This document shows, one piece after another, positions 10,258 to 41,790 of a stretch of 64,000 bases of DNA (position 1 is its first letter; the number at the start of each line of letters is the position of its first letter). The DNA lies in contig JAHDVH010000002.1 in NCBI GenBank assembly GCA_023382385.1, forward strand, positions 572,219 through 636,218. Direction: 5' to 3'. The notes beneath the pieces were generated by a model, which had not been told where the DNA came from, did not search any database, and was given only the letters and a program-made list of their open reading frames with translations. The stretch comes from a bacterium (GTDB lineage: Bacteria; Electryoneota; RPQS01). A program made the position numbers and the translations under genes.

Positions 10258-11382
10258 ATGTACGATCCTCGACACAAAAAACTTGCTGAAGTGCTGGTGA
10301 AGCACTCCACCAAAGTGAAGCCCGGCGACAAAGTGCTAATCGAGTGCTTTGACATTCCGCTTGAGTTCATCAGAGTGCTCTTGCAGGAAGTCTGCGATGC
10401 CGGGGGCCTGCCGGTGCTGGAATACAAGCACCAGTCCGTAATGCGCACTCTGATGCGTAACGCCACCGAAGAGCGCATGAAATTGATTGCCGACAGCGAA
10501 CTCTACCGGATGAAGCAAATGGACTGCTACATCGCGGTTCGCGGTGTTTTCAATGCCAAGGAATTGATCGATGTTCCCGGCGATCAGATGTCGCTGTATG
10601 AGAAGCATTGGTTGAAGCCTGTGCATCTCAAGCAGCGCGTCGAGAACACCCGCTGGGTGATTCTCAAATACCCGTCGCCGCAAATGGCGCAGATGGCCAA
10701 GATGAGCCACGAGGTGTTTGAGGACTTTTTCTACCACGTGTGCTGCGACGTGGATTGGAAGAAGGCCAGCGACGCGATGATTCCGGCGAAAGCCTTCATG
10801 GAAAAGACCGATAAGGTGCATATCAAGGGACCGGGAACCGATCTGCAATTCTCCATTAAGGGAATTCCGGCGGTGCCTTGCGGCGGAAGCTTTAACATCC
10901 CCGACCTGGAGATATTCACGGCGCCCGTGCGTAATTCTGTGAACGGCAAGATCAGCTACAACTCACCGTCCACCTACCGCGGTTTCACGTTTGAAAACGT
11001 CGTGCTCGAATTCAAGGACGGCAAGGTCGTCAATGCGACGTCCAACGACACAAAGCGTATCAACGAGATTTTCGACACGGATGAAGGTGCGCGTTACGTG
11101 GGCGAGTTCGCGCTTGGTTTTCATCCGTATGTGCTCGAACCGATGGACGACATTCTGTTTGACGAGAAAATCGCCGGTTCGTTCCATTTCACGCCCGGCC
11201 AGGCCTACGAGAAGGAAGCCGATAACGGCAATCGCAGCCAGATTCACTGGGATCTTGTATGTATTCAGCGTCCCGAGAAGGGCGGCGGCGAAATTTGGAT
11301 GGATGGGAAACTCATTCGCAAGGATGGCGTTTTCGTGCATGAAGCGTTCCTCGCAATGAATCCGGAGAATCTGGTGAAGTAG
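10258..11382 (+). CDS. M29-family (thermophilic-type) aminopeptidase
   Basis: 374 residues, the usual size for AmpS/AmpT-like leucyl aminopeptidases of family M29. These are metal-dependent dimers that remove N-terminal residues from peptides in the cytoplasm. The N-terminal half has the substrate-gate fold (KVKPGDKVLIECFDIPLEF). The C-terminal half holds the metal site (GTDLQFSIKG, GGSFNIPDLEIFTAPV, STYRGFTFENVVLEFKDGKV, ELGF/FALGFHPYV, SQIHWDLV). AGGAG lies 11 bases before the ATG. It is monocistronic, ended by a shared bidirectional terminator. Confidence 0.9.
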   Translation: MYDPRHKKLAEVLVKHSTKVKPGDKVLIECFDIPLEFIRVLLQEVCDAGGLPVLEYKHQSVMRTLMRNATEERMKLIADSELYRMKQMDCYIAVRGVFNAKELIDVPGDQMSLYEKHWLKPVHLKQRVENTRWVILKYPSPQMAQMAKMSHEVFEDFFYHVCCDVDWKKASDAMIPAKAFMEKTDKVHIKGPGTDLQFSIKGIPAVPCGGSFNIPDLEIFTAPVRNSVNGKISYNSPSTYRGFTFENVVLEFKDGKVVNATSNDTKRINEIFDTDEGARYVGEFALGFHPYVLEPMDDILFDEKIAGSFHFTPGQAYEKEADNGNRSQIHWDLVCIQRPEKGGGEIWMDGKLIRKDGVFVHEAFLAMNPENLVK

Positions 11383-11404
11383 CTACTTCACGCATGATTG
11401 TAAG

Positions 11405-11434
11405 AGAAAGCCCCGCTAAGTAGCGGGGCTTTCT
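11405..11434. terminator. Bidirectional terminator between convergent genes
   Basis: Perfect 13-bp stem AGAAAGCCCCGCT / AGCGGGGCTTTCT with loop AAGT. It lies 23 bases after the aminopeptidase and 18 bases after the stop of the convergent beta-helix gene. T-rich ends exist in both directions. Confidence 0.8.
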
Positions 11435-11451
11435 GGTAAGTGGAATCTAAC

Positions 11452-13059
11452 TTACTTCAACAGCAGCAGCTTTGTGACAACATGTGTTGTTGAGGAGGAT
11501 AGTTTCGCAAAGTACGTTCCGCTTGCGACATTGTCGGCACTGATTGTCAAGGTCTTGACGGACTGAATGCGGCCCGTGTATAACAACTTGACCAAGCGGC
11601 CATGCAGGTCGTAGAGTATAACACGGTACTCCCCGGGTTCTGCAACATGGATCGTCAGTGTCGTCGTTGCGTTAAACGGATTGGGAAAAACGGACAGCGA
11701 AAGTTCGGTCGGCAACTCGTTACGTTTATCTGCGCTCGTGCCTGATGTATCCGGAATCGAATCCGGCGGCGATGTCAGCCACGGAATAAACTCCACGCCG
11801 TTACCGACTTCAGTTCCTTGACCTTCGGGATTGAACACTGCGTGATACGGCCCCGTCGAATCCCCCCACCAGTTCTCACGCGCGTCAAAATAGGGTCCGG
11901 CCGAGAACGCAGCGATTCCGGGTGGCAGGAATTGATTGGCCCGAGCGAATACGGTGTCCAGAGGTGTGCTGATGGCTCGAACATCGGGAGAAGTAGCAGG
12001 TTGCAAATCGATGAACTTATTGTCTACCAGATCCACAGAACCGGAGATTTCAATGCCCGGTGCTGCGCCTCCAGTTGTCGTTCCGCCAACAAATTTGTTG
12101 CCGTAAACCTGTCCGAAGTAACCCGGCTGAGGGTCTTGGCAAATGAACTTTATCGCTGACGGTCCGGAGGCAATCCCTTCGCCTTGGTAGTTGTTAAACA
12201 TGTTTCCCCGAATACTTATCGGCGAACCGTCTTCACTTGGACAGCCCATGGCGACCTCCAGCAACGCAGGGCACCGGCCTATGTCTTCAAAGGTATTACT
12301 GTCAATCCTGCAATTACTTACCGGATTGATGTTCACCAAAGAGAATCCCCTGCCAGACGGGCCGAACCGACAAGTGCTCACTTCAATGTCGCTGCCGTGC
12401 AATTGGAGCAGATGTGTTCCTCCATCTGTATCACGGCGTAACGAGCTATTGCGAACAATTGAACCTGTGGAACAGAAGATCAGCCACCAACCCGATCCGC
12501 TAAAATCGCATTTGTTAACTCGAACTGTACCGAACGCGCCCGGATAGAGACAGAACCACAGGCATCCGTTAAAGCGACAGTGCTCCGCTTCGATAAGTTG
12601 CGCGGCAAGGACCGCTTGAGAGACTGAATCAAACACACAGTTGCGCAGGTACAAAGCTGATCCGGTATGATGTACTCCACCGACTCTCGTCGGCCAATCT
12701 GGTTGACGCATTTCGGGCCGGTTAAAAAAGACGAATTTCTCAATATGGACCGTATCACCCGGAAAAACTGCAACGGATGGTGTATCCGATCCTCTGGGAA
12801 TAGGATCAAGAACTGTTCTCAGCTCCGCAAGAGTGTCCGCAGGGTACCAGCCCGTCAAGGTCAACGAGTAGGCGGGGGCGATGAGAAATTCATGGTAGAC
12901 TCCGGGACTCACCCGCACTGTGTCGCCAGTTTGCGTCACATTCAGTGCATCTTGTATTGTCGCGTATTCTGAAGGGACTTCCAGGGTCTCGGCTTGGACC
13001 AAGGAAGAAGTTATGCAGATCACGATCAACAAGTTGGCCGCAACCACCAGATTTCGCAC
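11452..13059 (-). CDS. Secreted right-handed beta-helix protein with sorting domain (cassette copy 2)
   Basis: About 535 residues. I place the start at GTG 13059, which opens a good signal peptide (MRNLVVAANLLIVICITSSL) seven bases after the stop of the Cys-rich gene; frame-internal ATGs at 13107 and 13092 lie inside that gene. The body is a parallel beta-helix of the NosD/pectate-lyase type (VPSEYATIQDAL opening, repeated N-x-F and C-x-F turns). It ends in ENWWGDSTGPYH, a linker, and a sorting domain (VFPNPFNATT to TKLLLLK). Catalytic residues of a lyase are not recognisable; it may bind polysaccharide. It is paralogous to 13742-15343. Confidence 0.87.
   Translation of the reverse strand: MRNLVVAANLLIVICITSSLVQAETLEVPSEYATIQDALNVTQTGDTVRVSPGVYHEFLIAPAYSLTLTGWYPADTLAELRTVLDPIPRGSDTPSVAVFPGDTVHIEKFVFFNRPEMRQPDWPTRVGGVHHTGSALYLRNCVFDSVSQAVLAAQLIEAEHCRFNGCLWFCLYPGAFGTVRVNKCDFSGSGWWLIFCSTGSIVRNSSLRRDTDGGTHLLQLHGSDIEVSTCRFGPSGRGFSLVNINPVSNCRIDSNTFEDIGRCPALLEVAMGCPSEDGSPISIRGNMFNNYQGEGIASGPSAIKFICQDPQPGYFGQVYGNKFVGGTTTGGAAPGIEISGSVDLVDNKFIDLQPATSPDVRAISTPLDTVFARANQFLPPGIAAFSAGPYFDARENWWGDSTGPYHAVFNPEGQGTEVGNGVEFIPWLTSPPDSIPDTSGTSADKRNELPTELSLSVFPNPFNATTTLTIHVAEPGEYRVILYDLHGRLVKLLYTGRIQSVKTLTISADNVASGTYFAKLSSSTTHVVTKLLLLK
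11709..11889. repeat. Copy 2 of a conserved 181-bp block shared by the two beta-helix genes
   Basis: Aligned to 14002-14182 without gaps, I count 21 differences in 181 bases (about 88% identity). The block encodes the ENWWGDSTGPYH motif, the linker and the start of the NPF motif. The sorting domain immediately beyond it is very different between the copies. Confidence 0.8.
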
Positions 13060-13066
13060 GATTCCG

Positions 13067-13570
13067 TTAGGGTGTACAAGTTGTGACAGCATAGGAAATG
13101 CATGCATAGGCAGTGCAGTTTGCTTCACATGATTCACAGGATTGGACAGCAGGACAAGGAACCTTGCATACATACATGACGTATGTGGCGGTCGCCGACA
13201 AGCTTATCGAATTGGTGCAGACATAGCTGCAATTCCCAATATTACACTCGACTGTATGGCAGTTCTCCAGAAAGGTTTCGTTGCCGCCTTCAAGCTTATA
13301 CAAGTTTGCGCAGGATTGACACTTGCTGCAATCTCCCGTGCCACCTGAACATGTTGTGTGGGTTGTGAAGGTGTAATTGCCATCGCACAAAGGCGAGAAC
13401 TCAGTGCGCGTGCAATTAGCCGTTAGGTTTTCTCTGCAACCGGCAGTTGAGCACGTTGCATCGCTGAAACAAATACACTCTGTGCAGGCCCCAACTCCTA
13501 TCGGCATTCCCAGACACAACAAAACCGCAAGAGTCGTCATTGCGAAAGTCGTGGAAGGTGTTCTCTTCAT
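13067..13570 (-). CDS. Small Cys-rich secreted protein (cassette copy 2)
   Basis: 167 residues from ATG 13570, with GGAGG six bases upstream. A signal peptide (MKRTPSTTFAMTTLAVLLCL) is followed by a mature part with 22 Cys, starting ACTECIC. Many Cys sit in CxxC or C-x2/3-C spacing (CSKCQSC, CESCEANC), with a conserved YVMYVC segment near the C-terminus. I recognise no known domain. It is homologous to the proteins at 15340 and 35435, and all three lie directly upstream of a sorting-domain protein. The Cys content suggests a disulfide-stabilised or metal-binding secreted domain, but that is inference. It lacks a sorting domain of its own. Confidence 0.8.
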   Translation of the reverse strand: MKRTPSTTFAMTTLAVLLCLGMPIGVGACTECICFSDATCSTAGCRENLTANCTRTEFSPLCDGNYTFTTHTTCSGGTGDCSKCQSCANLYKLEGGNETFLENCHTVECNIGNCSYVCTNSISLSATATYVMYVCKVPCPAVQSCESCEANCTAYACISYAVTTCTP

Positions 13571-13741
13571 GGCTATCCTCCAAGTCATTCTGATTCCCCT
13601 GATGCTCTCTGTCATTTGGTGCACTACTCCTGATTTACAGCTTCAGGGTTTGCCGTCTAGCGTTTGCTGGGCATTCGTGGCAATATCGCGAACTATTTGC
13701 AACCAAGATGATTTCATCGCGTTGTCGGAGTTTTCCTACGG

Positions 13742-15343
13742 CTACTTCAGCAGGAGCAGTTTCGCTGCTTGTGGTGCGTGCGACGTCGTGAGCTTTGCGA
13801 AGTAGACTCCGCTTGCGTACTTGCTGCCGTCGAAGTGAACTTCGTGCAGTCCGGCTGTGAACAAATCGTCAGCGAGTGTCGCGATCCTTCTGCCCAATAT
13901 GTCGAACAATTCGAGTCGCACAATCTCGGACTTCCAAAGCGAGAACGAAATCGTTGTCGTGGGGTTGAATGGATTAGGAAACACAGACAACAAGAGCTCG
14001 CTCGGCAACTCGTTGCGTTCATCTGCGCTCGTGCCTGAAGTATCCGGAATCGAATCCGGCGGTGCAGTCAGCCACGGAATGAACTCCACGCCGTTACCAA
14101 CCTCGGTTCCCCGTCCCTCGGGATTGAACACCGAGTGATATGGTCCCGTCGAATCCCCCCACCAGTTCTCACGTGCATCGAACGGCATCCCATCAGTCTG
14201 CGCAGCCAGACCCGGCGGAAGAAACATATTGTCACGTGCCAGCGTAATGCCCGAGACGCTTCCAAACAACCACACGTCTCCCAAGTTCTCCGGGAAAAGA
14301 TCCGCGAACTGATTGTTCGCCAGTGAAACTCGGAGATTTGACCGGACTCCGGGTCCTATGGTTGAACTGCCATTCTGAAAAGAGTTGCTCTCGATATGTG
14401 CAATGTTCTCGTTAGTGCTTCCTTGGCAACTGATCTGTATCGCCGTTGTGCCAGATGCGGGTCCAACGCCATGGAAATCAACAAACTCATTGTTGAAAAT
14501 CGTAATCGGTGCATGTTCAAACATCTCATCGCAGTCCACGGATCCGTCAATCAATGAGTATGCACGTTCGATTCCCTCAAACGCGCAATTCTCAATCAAA
14601 CAGTTTCCTTGCGAGTATAAGCTGAGAACCGGAAAGGCGCTGTAACATGGTCCGAAGCGGCAGCCAGAGACTGTGATACTGCTTCCGAGGATTATCAGAA
14701 ATTCCGATTGTTGGCGATTGCAGAGAAATGTGCAGTTGCGCACTACTGAATTGCTGTAGCATTTCAGGAGGTGGGGGCCTTCGCCGTCAAAGGAGCAATC
14801 GCGGCAGTCCACCATGCCATAAACACTGGGTGTCACGCAATCACGATAACATCCTTCAAATATACAGTTCCTCAAGTAAAGTCTCGCGCCACCCCGCACT
14901 CCCCGCGAGACGGAATCAAAGCGGCAGTTCTCAAGAGAGAGCGCTGTTCCCATAAACCGCACTCCACCGGTGCGGGTCGCCGCACCATACTGACGATATT
15001 CGTGGCGATTGAAGAAAGCAAAGTTCCTGATTGCAACGGAGTCACCGCCGAACACCGCTGCCGAAGGCGTGTCCACTCCCGATGGAATCGGATCGAGTGT
15101 GGAGCGCAGAACGGCAAGTGTGTCCCCGGGATACCAGCCCGTGAGTGTCAAAGAGTGAGATGGGGCCAACAGAAACTCATGATAGACCCCCGGTGCCACA
15201 CGAATGGTGTCACTCGTCTGCGAAGAATCAAGCGCAATCTGGATCGTCGAATAGTCTGCAGGAACCTCCAATACGCGACCCAAAGAGTCTGCAGTCAGGA
15301 ACGCGACCCAAAAGAGCAGTGTTAAATAGGTTGCAGGCTTCAT
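13742..15343 (-). CDS. Secreted right-handed beta-helix protein with sorting domain (cassette copy 1)
   Basis: 533 residues. The ATG at 15343 overlaps the TGA of the Cys-rich gene (ATGA), so translation is coupled. Signal peptide MKPATYLTLLFWVAFLTADS, then VPADYSTIQIAL and a parallel beta-helix with many short strands and Cys (NCRFDS, NCIFEGC, DCSFDG). The ENWWGDSTGPYH motif leads into a linker and a canonical type A sorting domain (VFPNPFNPTT, DILGRRIATL, YASGVYFAKL, final Lys). Paralogous along its length to 11452-13059, but with a sorting domain of different sequence. Surface-exposed cargo is likely; enzymatic activity is not evident. Confidence 0.87.
   Translation of the reverse strand: MKPATYLTLLFWVAFLTADSLGRVLEVPADYSTIQIALDSSQTSDTIRVAPGVYHEFLLAPSHSLTLTGWYPGDTLAVLRSTLDPIPSGVDTPSAAVFGGDSVAIRNFAFFNRHEYRQYGAATRTGGVRFMGTALSLENCRFDSVSRGVRGGARLYLRNCIFEGCYRDCVTPSVYGMVDCRDCSFDGEGPHLLKCYSNSVVRNCTFLCNRQQSEFLIILGSSITVSGCRFGPCYSAFPVLSLYSQGNCLIENCAFEGIERAYSLIDGSVDCDEMFEHAPITIFNNEFVDFHGVGPASGTTAIQISCQGSTNENIAHIESNSFQNGSSTIGPGVRSNLRVSLANNQFADLFPENLGDVWLFGSVSGITLARDNMFLPPGLAAQTDGMPFDARENWWGDSTGPYHSVFNPEGRGTEVGNGVEFIPWLTAPPDSIPDTSGTSADERNELPSELLLSVFPNPFNPTTTISFSLWKSEIVRLELFDILGRRIATLADDLFTAGLHEVHFDGSKYASGVYFAKLTTSHAPQAAKLLLLK
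14002..14182. repeat. Copy 1 of the conserved 181-bp block
   Basis: Gap-free partner of 11709-11889, at a distance of 2293 bases. The surrounding beta-helix and sorting-domain sequence is clearly more diverged than the block. Confidence 0.8.
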
Positions 15344-15849
15344 GGCGTGCACGGCATGGTTGAAAGCCCATACGATAAGCAGCCGACCGCTACGCAGGAT
15401 GCATCACAATCCCCACAGTCCTCCAGACCTTCGTAGTCGGCACAGTATAGCTTGCAGACGTAAAGCACATAGGTGCTGCTCGAAGTAAGTGATACGGAAC
15501 TGCAAGTTGTTCCACATTCGTCAACTGAACAGAGATTCGTGTGGCAGTTAGCAACCCAGATTTCGTTCCCACCACTCACTTTAAAGAGGTTAACGCAACT
15601 ATAACACTTTCCGCAGAGCGTTTCACACGAGTTCACTGCTGCATAAAAGGCATACTCCCCGTCACACTCTGGCGTGAACTCCAGCCGCGTGCAATTCGCT
15701 GTCAGGTCAAGATCGCACTCATCGTTTGAGCAGGTGTTGTCCGTGACACAGATGCACTCCGTGCAGGCGCAGATCCTTGCCGGCAGTCCCAGACACAAAA
15801 AAACCGCAAGAGTCGTCATTGCGGCAGTCGTGAATGGTGTGTTCGTCAT
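15340..15849 (-). CDS. Small Cys-rich secreted protein (cassette copy 1)
   Basis: 169 residues from ATG 15849, preceded by AGAGG. The signal peptide (MTNTPFTTAAMTTLAVFLCL) is almost the same as in copy 2. The mature part again has 22 Cys: ACTECIC start, CGKCYSC, STYVLYVC, DCGDCDASC, and a C-terminal PCTP. It overlaps the beta-helix gene by four bases. A promoter-like site lies about 60-90 bases upstream, making this the first gene of the duplicated locus. No known family recognised; see the protein at 35435 for a more distant relative. Confidence 0.82.
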   Translation of the reverse strand: MTNTPFTTAAMTTLAVFLCLGLPARICACTECICVTDNTCSNDECDLDLTANCTRLEFTPECDGEYAFYAAVNSCETLCGKCYSCVNLFKVSGGNEIWVANCHTNLCSVDECGTTCSSVSLTSSSTYVLYVCKLYCADYEGLEDCGDCDASCVAVGCLSYGLSTMPCTP

Positions 15850-15909
15850 GGCAAACCTCTGAGTCTTCTTGTTTCCCCGATGCGGGCGGCCTCTTTGGTG
15901 CACGACCTA

Positions 15910-15938
15910 AATGTACGGCTTCAGGATTCCCTTGTCAA
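15910..15938 (-). promoter_or_regulatory. Promoter of the duplicated cassette locus, with palindrome over the -35 box
   Basis: TTGACA at 15938-15933, 17 bases, TACATT at 15915-15910 on the minus strand. The -35 box lies inside the perfect inverted repeat CCCTTG-A-CAAGGG, which could be an operator. The equivalent position before cassette copy 2 lacks 15 bases including this box. Confidence 0.6.
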
Positions 15939-16003
15939 GGGTTTGCGGTGCAGAAAAAGATGGACAATTTCTATACTCTCCTATTGGTCTGATTCTTCGC
16001 AAG

Positions 16004-17023
16004 TTAACGTCTGATTGTTGTCTCCCCGCGAATGAGCTTTTTCACGTGTTCCGATTGAAGCATGGAATGTGGGAATCCGAGTTCGGGCGCCGTCGCATCA
16101 TTCAAACGCTGCATTACCTCAATGGGAATTGTTACGTCCAGCGCACCAAGATTGTCTTCCAGCTGGGCGATCGTGCGCGCTCCGAGGATTGGACAAGTCA
16201 CGCCCTCCTGCTCCATGTTCCAGCGGATCGCAAGCTGTGACGGCGTGCAGCCAATCTCCAAAGCGCATTCCGTAACGACTTGTGCAATTCTAAGGCTGCG
16301 GTCATTCTCCTTTTGTGCGCTGATGTTGGGCCGCAGTCCGCTCTCGTTGTTCTGATACTTTCCCGTGAGCCAGCCGCCGCCCAGCACGGACCATGTCGTG
16401 ACTCCGATGCGAAACTCCCGCGCCATCGGAAGCAGATCGCGTTCAAGCGAGCGATCCATCAGACTGTATTTCAGTTGCAGCGAGGTGATAGGAGCTAAAT
16501 TCCGAAACTCCGCAATGACTTGCGCCTGTGCCACTTTCCATGCGGGCGTATCTGATATCCCGATATACAGTATCTTCCCCTGGGTGACCAGATCATCGAA
16601 TCCGCGCAGCACTTCTTCAATCGGAATGTTGCCCTCCCAAACATGCAGATAGTAGACGTCGATGTGGTCCGTTCGCAGCCGCTTCAAACTCTTCTCGACG
16701 GAGCGCATCATGTTTTTGCGGGAATTGCCGCCGGCGTTGGGATCTTTGGGATTGGACGAGAGCGAGTATTTCGTCGCGATGACCAACTCGTCACGGCGGA
16801 CCTCCATGAACTCGCCGAGATACGACTCGCTCGTGCCGTCGGTATAGTTGATGGCTGTATCGATGAAATTACCGCCGCGTTCAGTATAGAGTTCAAACAT
16901 GCGGCGCGAATCGTCCTTGTCCGCGCCCCAGCCCCAGTCTGTGCCGAACGTCATCGCCCCGAAGCACAGTGGTGACACCGCGAGTCCGCTGTGGCCGAGC
17001 AGCTTATAATTAGTCAATAGCAT
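16004..17023 (-). CDS. Aldo/keto reductase
   Basis: 339 residues, NAD(P)H-dependent oxidoreductase of the (beta/alpha)8 AKR fold. The catalytic tetrad is visible: Asp55 and Tyr60 in FIDTAINYTDG, Lys85 in ATKYSL and His127 in YYLHVWE. The C-terminal cofactor segment is present (CPILGARTIAQLEDNLGAL). It resembles the YajO/AKR11-13 subgroups reducing aldehydes or ketones; the substrate is unknown. The next gene upstream is another NAD(P)-binding oxidoreductase with a 7-base gap, so the two are probably one transcript. Confidence 0.92.
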   Translation of the reverse strand: MLLTNYKLLGHSGLAVSPLCFGAMTFGTDWGWGADKDDSRRMFELYTERGGNFIDTAINYTDGTSESYLGEFMEVRRDELVIATKYSLSSNPKDPNAGGNSRKNMMRSVEKSLKRLRTDHIDVYYLHVWEGNIPIEEVLRGFDDLVTQGKILYIGISDTPAWKVAQAQVIAEFRNLAPITSLQLKYSLMDRSLERDLLPMAREFRIGVTTWSVLGGGWLTGKYQNNESGLRPNISAQKENDRSLRIAQVVTECALEIGCTPSQLAIRWNMEQEGVTCPILGARTIAQLEDNLGALDVTIPIEVMQRLNDATAPELGFPHSMLQSEHVKKLIRGETTIRR

Positions 17024-35434: not shown

Positions 35435-35896
35435 ATGATTCGCTTGAGAACTTCGTTTGTAGCTTCAGCTCTGTTGATGATGGATGCTGTTTGTTTTGGC
35501 CAATGTGCTCAATGCCCTCAAGGCTGGTGCCGAACTTTTGCAGACTTGTCATGTTCCTACGATGATTGTACTGGGTGTGAAACATACTTCCTTGAAGTGC
35601 CGTGCAATGCTCAGTACTTATGGCAGCTAAAGACATATAGTTTCAACAATGTGTGTGCTCCGTGTGTGACCGTCAAAGAGGTAGGCGGGGGCGTCGTTTT
35701 GAGCGCGGGGAATCTCAACAGTTGTTTAGATGGCGAAAGCGGCTCACTATTGCTTACTTGCGACAATGGAATGAAGTACGAGATTAGTGTTTGCCTCAAT
35801 ATCTGTAACGATGCTGGTCAAGAAGTCAACTGCGAGTATTGTGACGCGGACGTTGAGTTTGCATTGTTTTTCACAGCATGTAGCTGTTGTCAATAA
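35435..35896 (+). CDS. Small Cys-rich secreted protein (third family member)
   Basis: 153 residues with a signal peptide (MIRLRTSFVASALLMMDAVC) and 18 Cys in the mature part. It shares with the proteins at 13067 and 15340 a C-x2-C-x-x-(V/L) segment followed by a (K/E)VxGG turn, a Y-x-(I/L)-x-V-C motif before C-x2/3-C, and a CEYCDAD / CGDCDAS segment. Overall identity looks low. GGAGGAG precedes the ATG. The next gene, 36 bases on, again encodes a sorting-domain protein. No known domain recognised. Confidence 0.78.
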   Translation: MIRLRTSFVASALLMMDAVCFGQCAQCPQGWCRTFADLSCSYDDCTGCETYFLEVPCNAQYLWQLKTYSFNNVCAPCVTVKEVGGGVVLSAGNLNSCLDGESGSLLLTCDNGMKYEISVCLNICNDAGQEVNCEYCDADVEFALFFTACSCCQ

Positions 35897-39888: not shown

Positions 39889-41790
39889 CTACGGGTCTAC
39901 GCGCACCATGAACACCGGAATATCCACACGGTGCCGCACGCGGGTGGCGGTCGCGCCGAGCAGGAGGTCTTTCAGTGCGCGGTGGCCGTGCGTTCCGATG
40001 ATGAGCAGTTCCGCCTGCTCTTCCTTGAGCAGCCGCACGATTTCGTCCGGCGGATTGCCGTAACCCATCACCGGCTTCGCACTGATTCCGCGCTGCGCGA
40101 GTTCAACTTTCAGGTGTTCGAGATACGCTTCGTCGGCAAGCACTTCACGGTCTTCTGCTTTCTCACTCCAGACACGCGGCGCCATCGTGTCGGCGACGTG
40201 CACGAGCAGAAGTTCCGCGCCGCTGTCTTTGGCCATTGCCATCGCACGTGCCACGAGCACACGGTCGCTCTCTGTTGCTTCCAACGCCACAGCGATACGC
40301 TGGTAACGTGCGTGTTCAGGCTCCGGCAGTTCAAACGCCGGTGCGACAGCATCCACGTGCAACATCCGCTTGAACAGCGGCATAGTCACCAGATACAGCA
40401 GCAAAGCACCAAGTCCCACCGCAATCGCCAGCACCAGCACGTGCGTCCACTGCAGTCCTTCGGGCGACGCCGCAATCCAATCTCTCAGCACACCGGTCAC
40501 CAGCCAGACATTCAAACTGATAATCACGGTCGCCGCACTCCACGCGAGTATCTTCACCCACAGCTTGCTCGCGAAATCGCCCATTAACCTGCGGTCGCTC
40601 GTGAATTGAATCAGCGGCACAACCGCAAACGGCAATTGCATCGAGAGCACGACCTGCGAAAGAATCAGAAGCTGATAGCTTCCCGAGTCTCCCATTATCC
40701 AGATAGTCACTGCGGCGGGAATAATCGCCAGCGAACGCGTGATCATTCTGCGCAGCCATGGCCGGATGCGCAGATTGATGAATCCTTCCATAACCACCTG
40801 TCCGGCGAGCGTTCCGGTGAGTGTGGAGCTTTGGCCGCTCGCGAGTAGGGCAATCGCGAATGCGGTGCTGGCGACTTTTGCTCCAAGCAAAGGCGCGAGC
40901 AGTTCGTGTGCCTGCTGAATTTCGGTCACTTCAATGCCGTTTTCGTAGAACACCGCCGCCGCCAGCACGAGAATCGCCGCATTCACGAAGAACGCCGCGT
41001 TCAGCGCAACCACCGAGTCAATCAGATTATATTTGCAGGCCTGCCGCACGTTCGCAATGCTGCCGCCGACCGCGCGCGTTTGCACAAGGGCGGAATGCAG
41101 ATACAGATTGTGGGGCATGACCGTCGCGCCGAGAATACCGATGGCTACATACAGGCTCTCGTGTGTGATGCTCGGTACGAAGCCGGAGACGATGCCCGCG
41201 ACATCCGGTTTGGCCAGAACCATCTCCAATAGAAAACAGATGCCGATAGTCGCAACCAGCGTCAGGATAAACGCTTCGACTTTGCGAATCCCGAGATGCT
41301 GAAAGTAGAGCAACAGAAAAACATCAACGGCGGTAATCAATACTCCCCATAAGAGCGGAATACCGAACAGGAGATGCAATCCGATAGCTGAGCCGATGAC
41401 TTCGGCTAAGTCGCAGGCGATGATTGCAATTTCGCAGACAACCCACAACACAAAGCCGACCGGCTTTGAATAGCCTTCGCGGCAGGCGCGCGCAAGGTCA
41501 CGGCCCGTGACGATCCCCAGCCGTGCGGACAGGGCTTGAAGCAGCACGGCCATCAGATTGCTCATCAGCAGCACCCAGATCAGCGCGTAGCCGAAGCGCG
41601 AACCACCTTCAAGGTCAGTGGCCCAGTTGCCCGGGTCCATATAGCCGACGCTGACGAGATAGGCTGGTCCCGCGAATGCGAACAGCCGCCGCAGAATACT
41701 CGTCTTTTCAGGTATCGTTACGGAGCGGTGGACTTCGGAGAGCGAGACCAGTTCCGGCGCTGGCTGCTTAGTGTGTCTTCCCACTTTCAA
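39889..41790 (-). CDS. mntH: Nramp divalent-metal transporter fused to a universal stress (UspA) domain
   Basis: 633 residues. Residues about 35-480 form the Nramp transporter with eleven or so helices. The metal-binding DPGNW motif is in helix 1 and GATVMPHNLYLHSA in helix 6. The proton-coupled uptake of Mn2+ or Fe2+ is the family role. After a linker, residues about 490-633 are a UspA domain with the nucleotide motif GTHGHRALKDLLLGAT, close to G-x2-G-x9-G-S/T, so ATP binding is possible. Standard MntH proteins (about 410-430 residues) lack this domain. The mntR-type gene is one base upstream in the same direction. Confidence 0.93.
   Translation of the reverse strand: MKVGRHTKQPAPELVSLSEVHRSVTIPEKTSILRRLFAFAGPAYLVSVGYMDPGNWATDLEGGSRFGYALIWVLLMSNLMAVLLQALSARLGIVTGRDLARACREGYSKPVGFVLWVVCEIAIIACDLAEVIGSAIGLHLLFGIPLLWGVLITAVDVFLLLYFQHLGIRKVEAFILTLVATIGICFLLEMVLAKPDVAGIVSGFVPSITHESLYVAIGILGATVMPHNLYLHSALVQTRAVGGSIANVRQACKYNLIDSVVALNAAFFVNAAILVLAAAVFYENGIEVTEIQQAHELLAPLLGAKVASTAFAIALLASGQSSTLTGTLAGQVVMEGFINLRIRPWLRRMITRSLAIIPAAVTIWIMGDSGSYQLLILSQVVLSMQLPFAVVPLIQFTSDRRLMGDFASKLWVKILAWSAATVIISLNVWLVTGVLRDWIAASPEGLQWTHVLVLAIAVGLGALLLYLVTMPLFKRMLHVDAVAPAFELPEPEHARYQRIAVALEATESDRVLVARAMAMAKDSGAELLLVHVADTMAPRVWSEKAEDREVLADEAYLEHLKVELAQRGISAKPVMGYGNPPDEIVRLLKEEQAELLIIGTHGHRALKDLLLGATATRVRHRVDIPVFMVRVDP

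Follow-up and report, generated by a model that had tools for sequence, protein, structure and literature searches.

Why do genes for small, cysteine-rich secreted proteins lie directly in front of genes for type IX secretion system (T9SS) type A cargo, when such cargo is thought to need only a sorting domain and the general machinery? The question arises from the window, i.e., the whole 64,000-nucleotide stretch of DNA analyzed here, in which the original prediction had noted three such genes and proposed that their products are helpers or ligands for sorted cargo. The best reading of the present analysis is that these genes belong to cognate two-gene units, in which a small beta-sandwich protein would bind its own beta-helix, either as a co-displayed subunit or as a dedicated escort.

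Window loci and the f1 family

The features concerned are listed below, where A, B, and C are the small proteins and pA, pB, and pC their partners.

15910..15938, minus strand: promoter-like site of the A+pA unit (TTGACA, 17-base spacer, TACATT), lying 89 bases upstream of the start codon (ATG) of A
15340..15849, minus strand: protein A, Cys-rich and secreted (family f1), with 22 Cys in the 141 residues after the signal peptide; profile 157 bits
13742..15343, minus strand: partner pA, a beta-helix carrying a type A sorting domain (T9SS) and joined to A by an ATGA overlap; PF13229 35 bits, PF18962 32.5 bits, TIGR04183 32.8 bits
13067..13570, minus strand: Cys-rich secreted protein B (f1), tandem duplicate of A, 22 Cys in the mature part, 49% identical to A; profile 161 bits
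11452..13092, minus strand: partner pB, likewise a beta-helix carrying a type A sorting domain (T9SS), 49% identical to pA and its tandem duplicate; PF13229 31.9 bits, PF18962 36.7 bits
35435..35896, plus strand: Cys-rich secreted protein C, divergent f1 member, 18 Cys in the mature part; leave-one-out profile 32.6 bits
35933..37987, plus strand: partner pC, Omp28-like, carrying a type A sorting domain (T9SS) and a thioredoxin-like CPPC motif; PF18962 38.3 bits, PF11551 (Omp28) 28.8 bits, below its cut-off of 34.9

Open reading frames for A, B, and C are present at these positions, and subtracting signal-peptide residues from total cysteine counts of 24, 23, and 19 gives the 22, 22, and 18 mature cysteines first reported. 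Each directly precedes a same-strand gene with a type A sorting domain. The partners exceed both curated cut-offs (TIGR04183 scores of 32.8, 38.4, and 38.5 bits vs. a cut-off of 23; PF18962 also above its own), and among the Pfam and NCBIfam models they clear the cut-offs for type A but none for type B. No sorting domain was found on A, B, or C, which have no Pfam or NCBIfam match. The junctions are as described earlier: an ATGA overlap at 15343/15340 for A and pA, a 36-base gap at 35896/35933 for C and pC, and a 7-base gap for B and pB if pB starts at the GTG at 13059; the alternative upstream starts of pB, ATG 13092 or ATG 13107, give an overlap with B instead.

The claim that the arrangement occurs three times holds only in part. 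Three loci exist, but A+pA and B+pB are tandem duplicates (49% identity in both members), so the window contains two independent cases rather than three. To call the three partners different was misleading, as pA and pB are paralogous right-handed beta-helices and pC alone is Omp28-like. Shared ancestry of A, B, and C was borne out; C is a genuine but divergent f1 member, since a profile made from the other f1 members gives it 32.6 bits, compared with a maximum of 8.7 bits in 2000 shuffles preserving its composition. The pairwise comparison of B with C alone is not significant, with 67/1000 shuffles reaching its score. Around the motif NWWGDSTGPYH the ends of pA and pB (within 11452-15343) are 85% identical in DNA, compared with 49% for the whole proteins, which points to gene conversion in the vicinity of the sorting domain. 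Elsewhere in the window (39889-41790, minus strand), a gene appears, by eye, to encode an NRAMP-type metal-ion transporter fused to a C-terminal universal-stress-protein domain.

The genome containing the window (2.9 Mb, 98% complete) encodes 127 type A sorting domains and has T9SS machinery, including SprA (714 bits, joined pieces) and PorU (650 bits vs. a cut-off of 420). Iterated profile searches identified 11 Cys-rich f1 genes in it. The check proposed with the original prediction, a profile search that scores the downstream gene, revealed strong enrichment in front of type A sorting-domain genes: all 11 f1 genes of this genome precede one on the same strand, as do 31/37 across the GTDB family. 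Neither a lack of enrichment nor a described domain of unrelated role was found. Among 39 genomes of the phylum, f1 is confined to six genomes of one GTDB family, and a degenerate-pattern search with f1 returned no relatives outside its lineage.

Six f1 genes have no type A gene behind them: five in genome G001 (four in tandem, one solo) and a divergent one in genome G007. In G001, four genes lie head-to-tail (L059:6539-8673) and the solo gene apart (L060:3037-3513), with no T9SS gene after any, an arrangement that suggests standalone use of the protein family. Partnerless copies in both genomes indicate that an f1 protein can exist in the absence of a T9SS partner. One pair in the window's own genome (L011:1446-3502) is decayed, with an in-frame stop in the f1 gene and a frameshift in its partner. 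Two divergent relatives (L178:4286-4819, L180:4417-4962) contain 9-11 Cys and seem to be anchored in the membrane at the N terminus, the former preceding a non-helix T9SS gene and the latter no T9SS gene. No f1 open frame, of at most 317 residues, was seen to combine the small domain with a helix in a single protein.

The earlier statement that no known domain was recognized agrees with Pfam, NCBIfam, and PDB-sequence searches, which gave nothing significant for f1. Structure prediction of the small protein alone had also been suggested; an AlphaFold2 model of the 141 residues of mature A, built with four sequences, is all-beta (pLDDT 79.6, pTM 0.78), with eight strands in a sandwich-like arrangement. 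Fold searches placed the Pgp3 C-terminal domain, CBM6, C-CPE, and TNF/C1q-like jelly rolls among their top matches, all with E>0.001 and TM of about 0.3-0.5. The model is described here as a jelly-roll-like beta-sandwich, for which membership in a named family is not claimed. Its strand pattern is similar to those of PPC, CBM6, and other jelly-roll beta-sandwich domains; unlike these, f1 is very Cys-rich, stand-alone, and paired with T9SS cargo, and no fold or sequence match fell below E=0.001. The PPC profile matched one of 33 f1 members weakly (E=0.14), and small proteins outside f1 gave weak, one-member Pfam matches only. A lipoprotein reading was rejected after inspection by eye, as there is no consistent lipobox and the sites of several members look like ordinary 'AQ' sites for signal peptidase I. 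A search of the window's own genome for VKOR found none.

Small upstream genes and beta-helix passengers

Nearly all f1 partners belong to one beta-helix subfamily, A5, which is separated by score from other proteins in the genomes searched, with a gap that is inflated by training sequences; even so, two members absent from the training set score on the A5 side of it. Three f1 proteins precede non-helix T9SS proteins: C in the window, the f1 gene at L013 in the same genome, whose partner was recognized by eye as subtilase-like, and the L178 relative in G002, whose partner is a non-helix type A protein. Beta-helix T9SS genes that have no f1 gene have another small secreted orphan upstream, drawn from five further families.

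A census of the 127 type A genes in the window's own genome, of which two were left unclassified, counted as small upstream genes those on the same strand, of 80-215 residues, with a hydrophobic signal, and ending between -200 and +150 bases from the longest start of the T9SS gene. Such a gene precedes 13/15 beta-helix genes vs. 7/110 other T9SS genes (Fisher p=4.7e-11), the latter count being slightly low because the criterion misses the neighbor of pC. Of the two exceptions among the helix genes, one is a weak helix match of much greater length; upstream of the other lies an f3 gene that is interrupted. Among genes new to the analysis, profile matches to families f2 and f3 in G002, G005, and G006 have a beta-helix directly behind them in 5/5 cases. 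In the f1 clade only one helix, G002:C25, lacks a small gene and has ferritin upstream instead. A helix query by degenerate patterns returned mostly helix-T9SS genes of other phyla, with no small upstream gene. The small upstream gene is predicted by the beta-helix passenger and not by the sorting domain, and the sorting domain was rejected as its determinant on two grounds, the rarity of small genes before non-helix T9SS genes and a divergence that does not track it. The idea of a helper or ligand survives in the narrower shape of a cognate partner of the helix passenger.

Small gene and helix gene are separated by a median of +1 base, with values from -40 to +49, and several pairs overlap exactly as ATGA. 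In 32/38 units, compared with 16% of shuffled upstream regions, a site resembling TTGACA/TATAAT lies ~70-140 bases before the small gene, the spacer being 17 bases in most cases. Such sites and tight junctions suggest that each pair is read as its own two-gene transcript. In many units, a short hairpin-forming leader lies between promoter-like site and small gene (15849-15938 in the window, and in related units); examples such as GTGCACC...GGTGCAC and GCAACC...GGTTGC reach the ribosome binding site, and the sequence varies among units. An Rfam scan of window positions 11000-16500 gave no significant element.

Matching of small protein and helix

Altogether, the small proteins were sorted into six families: f1 (Cys-rich), f2 (mostly 10-14 Cys), f3 (3-6 Cys), f4, f5, and f6. 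With hhalign, f1 and f2 scored 96.5% and f1 and f4 93.4%, scores that include signal peptides and Cys composition and are to be read with caution; f3 showed no detectable relation. On these comparisons, f1 and f2 are probably related and f1 and f4 possibly so. When partner labels were placed on a tree of 55 helices, six changes sufficed, the minimum for seven labels, and 0/200 shuffles gave as few. On this tree, the family of the small partner follows the helix clade exactly. An f6 protein with a T9SS-type beta-helix also occurs in a record titled Candidatus Puniceispirillum (L107:2929-5422), a label that looks wrong for a T9SS genome.

Within f1, distances among small proteins correlate closely with those among helix domains (25 pairs; r=0.84, 0/2000 permutations). 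For the sorting domains of the same genes, r was 0.33, falling to 0.07 with the helix held constant. In windows of equal width, r was 0.57-0.82 over most of the helix, peaking around residues 234-368 of pA, vs. 0.34 at the sorting domain. The two partners diverge equally fast (mean identity 31% for the small protein, 30% for the helix). Because the sorting domain shares a reading frame with the helix, physical linkage alone does not account for the difference in r. Recombination among sorting domains probably accounts for the low value, leaving the small protein tied to the helix, and part of the helix co-divergence could stem from recombination that replaces sorting domains. Co-divergence is the best evidence of a functional tie to the passenger, although it is not proof of contact.

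Proposed roles: cognate subunit, escort, or neighbor

The proposal that we rate somewhat above even is that the small protein is a cognate subunit of the helix passenger, bound to it in the periplasm and traveling or displayed with it. The f1 gene would be the first gene of a two-gene unit making a matched pair. Its product, a small, Sec-exported, disulfide-rich, jelly-roll-like protein, would fold in the periplasm and bind the helix passenger rather than its sorting domain; the type IX system would then sort the passenger to the surface, and the small protein would travel or be displayed with it. At least six small orphan families, f1 among them, occupy this position, each tied to one beta-helix clade. 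The data show the pairing itself, with its gene order and coupling, the promoter-like sites before most units, the T9SS machinery, the clade matching, and the co-divergence with the helix, whereas binding, co-display, disulfides, and a biological role of the pair are inferred. Since the small protein has no sorting domain, surface display would need piggy-back export, for which no precedent was found. Also counting against the proposal are the f1 copies with no T9SS gene behind them, the G002:C25 helix with no small gene, the three f1 proteins in front of non-helix T9SS proteins, and the negative VKOR search.

A dedicated periplasmic escort or chaperone, which would keep the helix export-competent or cap it until pick-up by the T9SS and then be recycled, is the second choice and a serious rival, albeit one that we consider unlikely. 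The small gene comes first in order and is tightly coupled, helix families are strictly matched, and the small protein lacks a sorting domain or clear lipobox, all as an escort that stays behind would have it; T9SS translocons moreover recruit SkpA, a homologue of a general periplasmic chaperone (PMC10994853). However, few chaperones have as many as 18-22 Cys in about 140 residues, the small protein diverges as fast as the helix whereas an escort is usually the better conserved, and six mostly unrelated-looking families would serve a single fold. High Cys content and equal divergence together favor an exposed subunit over a conserved chaperone. Less probable again is a neighborhood with no interaction, in which one ancestral unit was duplicated and the small protein acts alone, e.g., as an extracellular binding protein, its linkage inherited or kept for co-expression. 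The window units are indeed tandem duplicates, most units are paralogous, and G001 has its standalone f1 copies, yet the slot is shared among at least six families that correspond to helix clades, f1 also precedes non-helix T9SS proteins, and linkage alone would make the same-gene sorting domain track the small protein too.

Comparison with known systems bears on a further rival. For T9SS type B cargo, cognate cargo-partner gene pairs are established, with several paralogous pairs per genome (PMC12618676, PMC9143113), while known type A cargo use one common shuttle, PorV (PMC12618676). As with SprB-SprF of Flavobacterium johnsoniae, the nearest known parallel, the cargo gene here adjoins the gene for its own specific partner, which could suggest a shuttle like PorP/SprF that enables exit or anchoring by recognizing the C-terminal sorting domain. 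This reading is disfavored and very improbable. Unlike SprB, the cargo is type A, with no type B CTD; unlike the 14-strand outer membrane beta-barrel of PorP/SprF, encoded downstream, the partner is small, soluble, all-beta in the model, and encoded upstream. The matching tracks the passenger rather than the sorting domain, in contrast to PorP/SprF pairs, and 103/110 other type A genes have no such gene. The helix partners themselves resemble other T9SS type A (Por_Secre_tail) surface proteins in having a signal peptide and type A sorting domain, and differ from known type A cargo in having a cargo-specific small partner gene. A full-text literature search found no description of such a partner for type A cargo, which is weak evidence, as subscription papers were thinly covered. 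The least credible alternative, to which we give almost no weight, is a regulatory leader, in which translating the small gene serves mainly to open, or set the timing of, translation of the beta-helix gene. Overlapping start and stop codons, short junctions, and structured 5′ leaders would suit it, but the encoded proteins, conserved and with signal peptides, share an invariant Cys framework and are predicted to be all-beta, none of which a leader peptide would need.

Extended beyond f1, the preferred reading of a cognate subunit leads to a broader proposal, which we hold tentatively and at slightly less than even: that every beta-helix clade is served by a family of small secreted beta-sandwich proteins of its own, exported or displayed together with the helix as an obligate heteromeric unit at the surface, that families without common origin or highly diverged from one another can take the same position, and that these constitute an undescribed class of passenger-specific partners for type A cargo.

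Overall, nearly every surface beta-helix protein in one family of uncultured bacteria is encoded directly behind its own small secreted protein, and the joint evolutionary change of the two suggests that they form an undescribed kind of matched pair at or close to the cell surface. This would account for a group of orphan genes in uncultured, T9SS-bearing bacteria, and the ~55 natural pairs in six orphan families are usable for co-evolution analysis and complex prediction. If the proposal is true, whole classes of T9SS cargo would be built or displayed as two-protein units, and the question for export would be how a protein that has no sorting domain leaves the periplasm.
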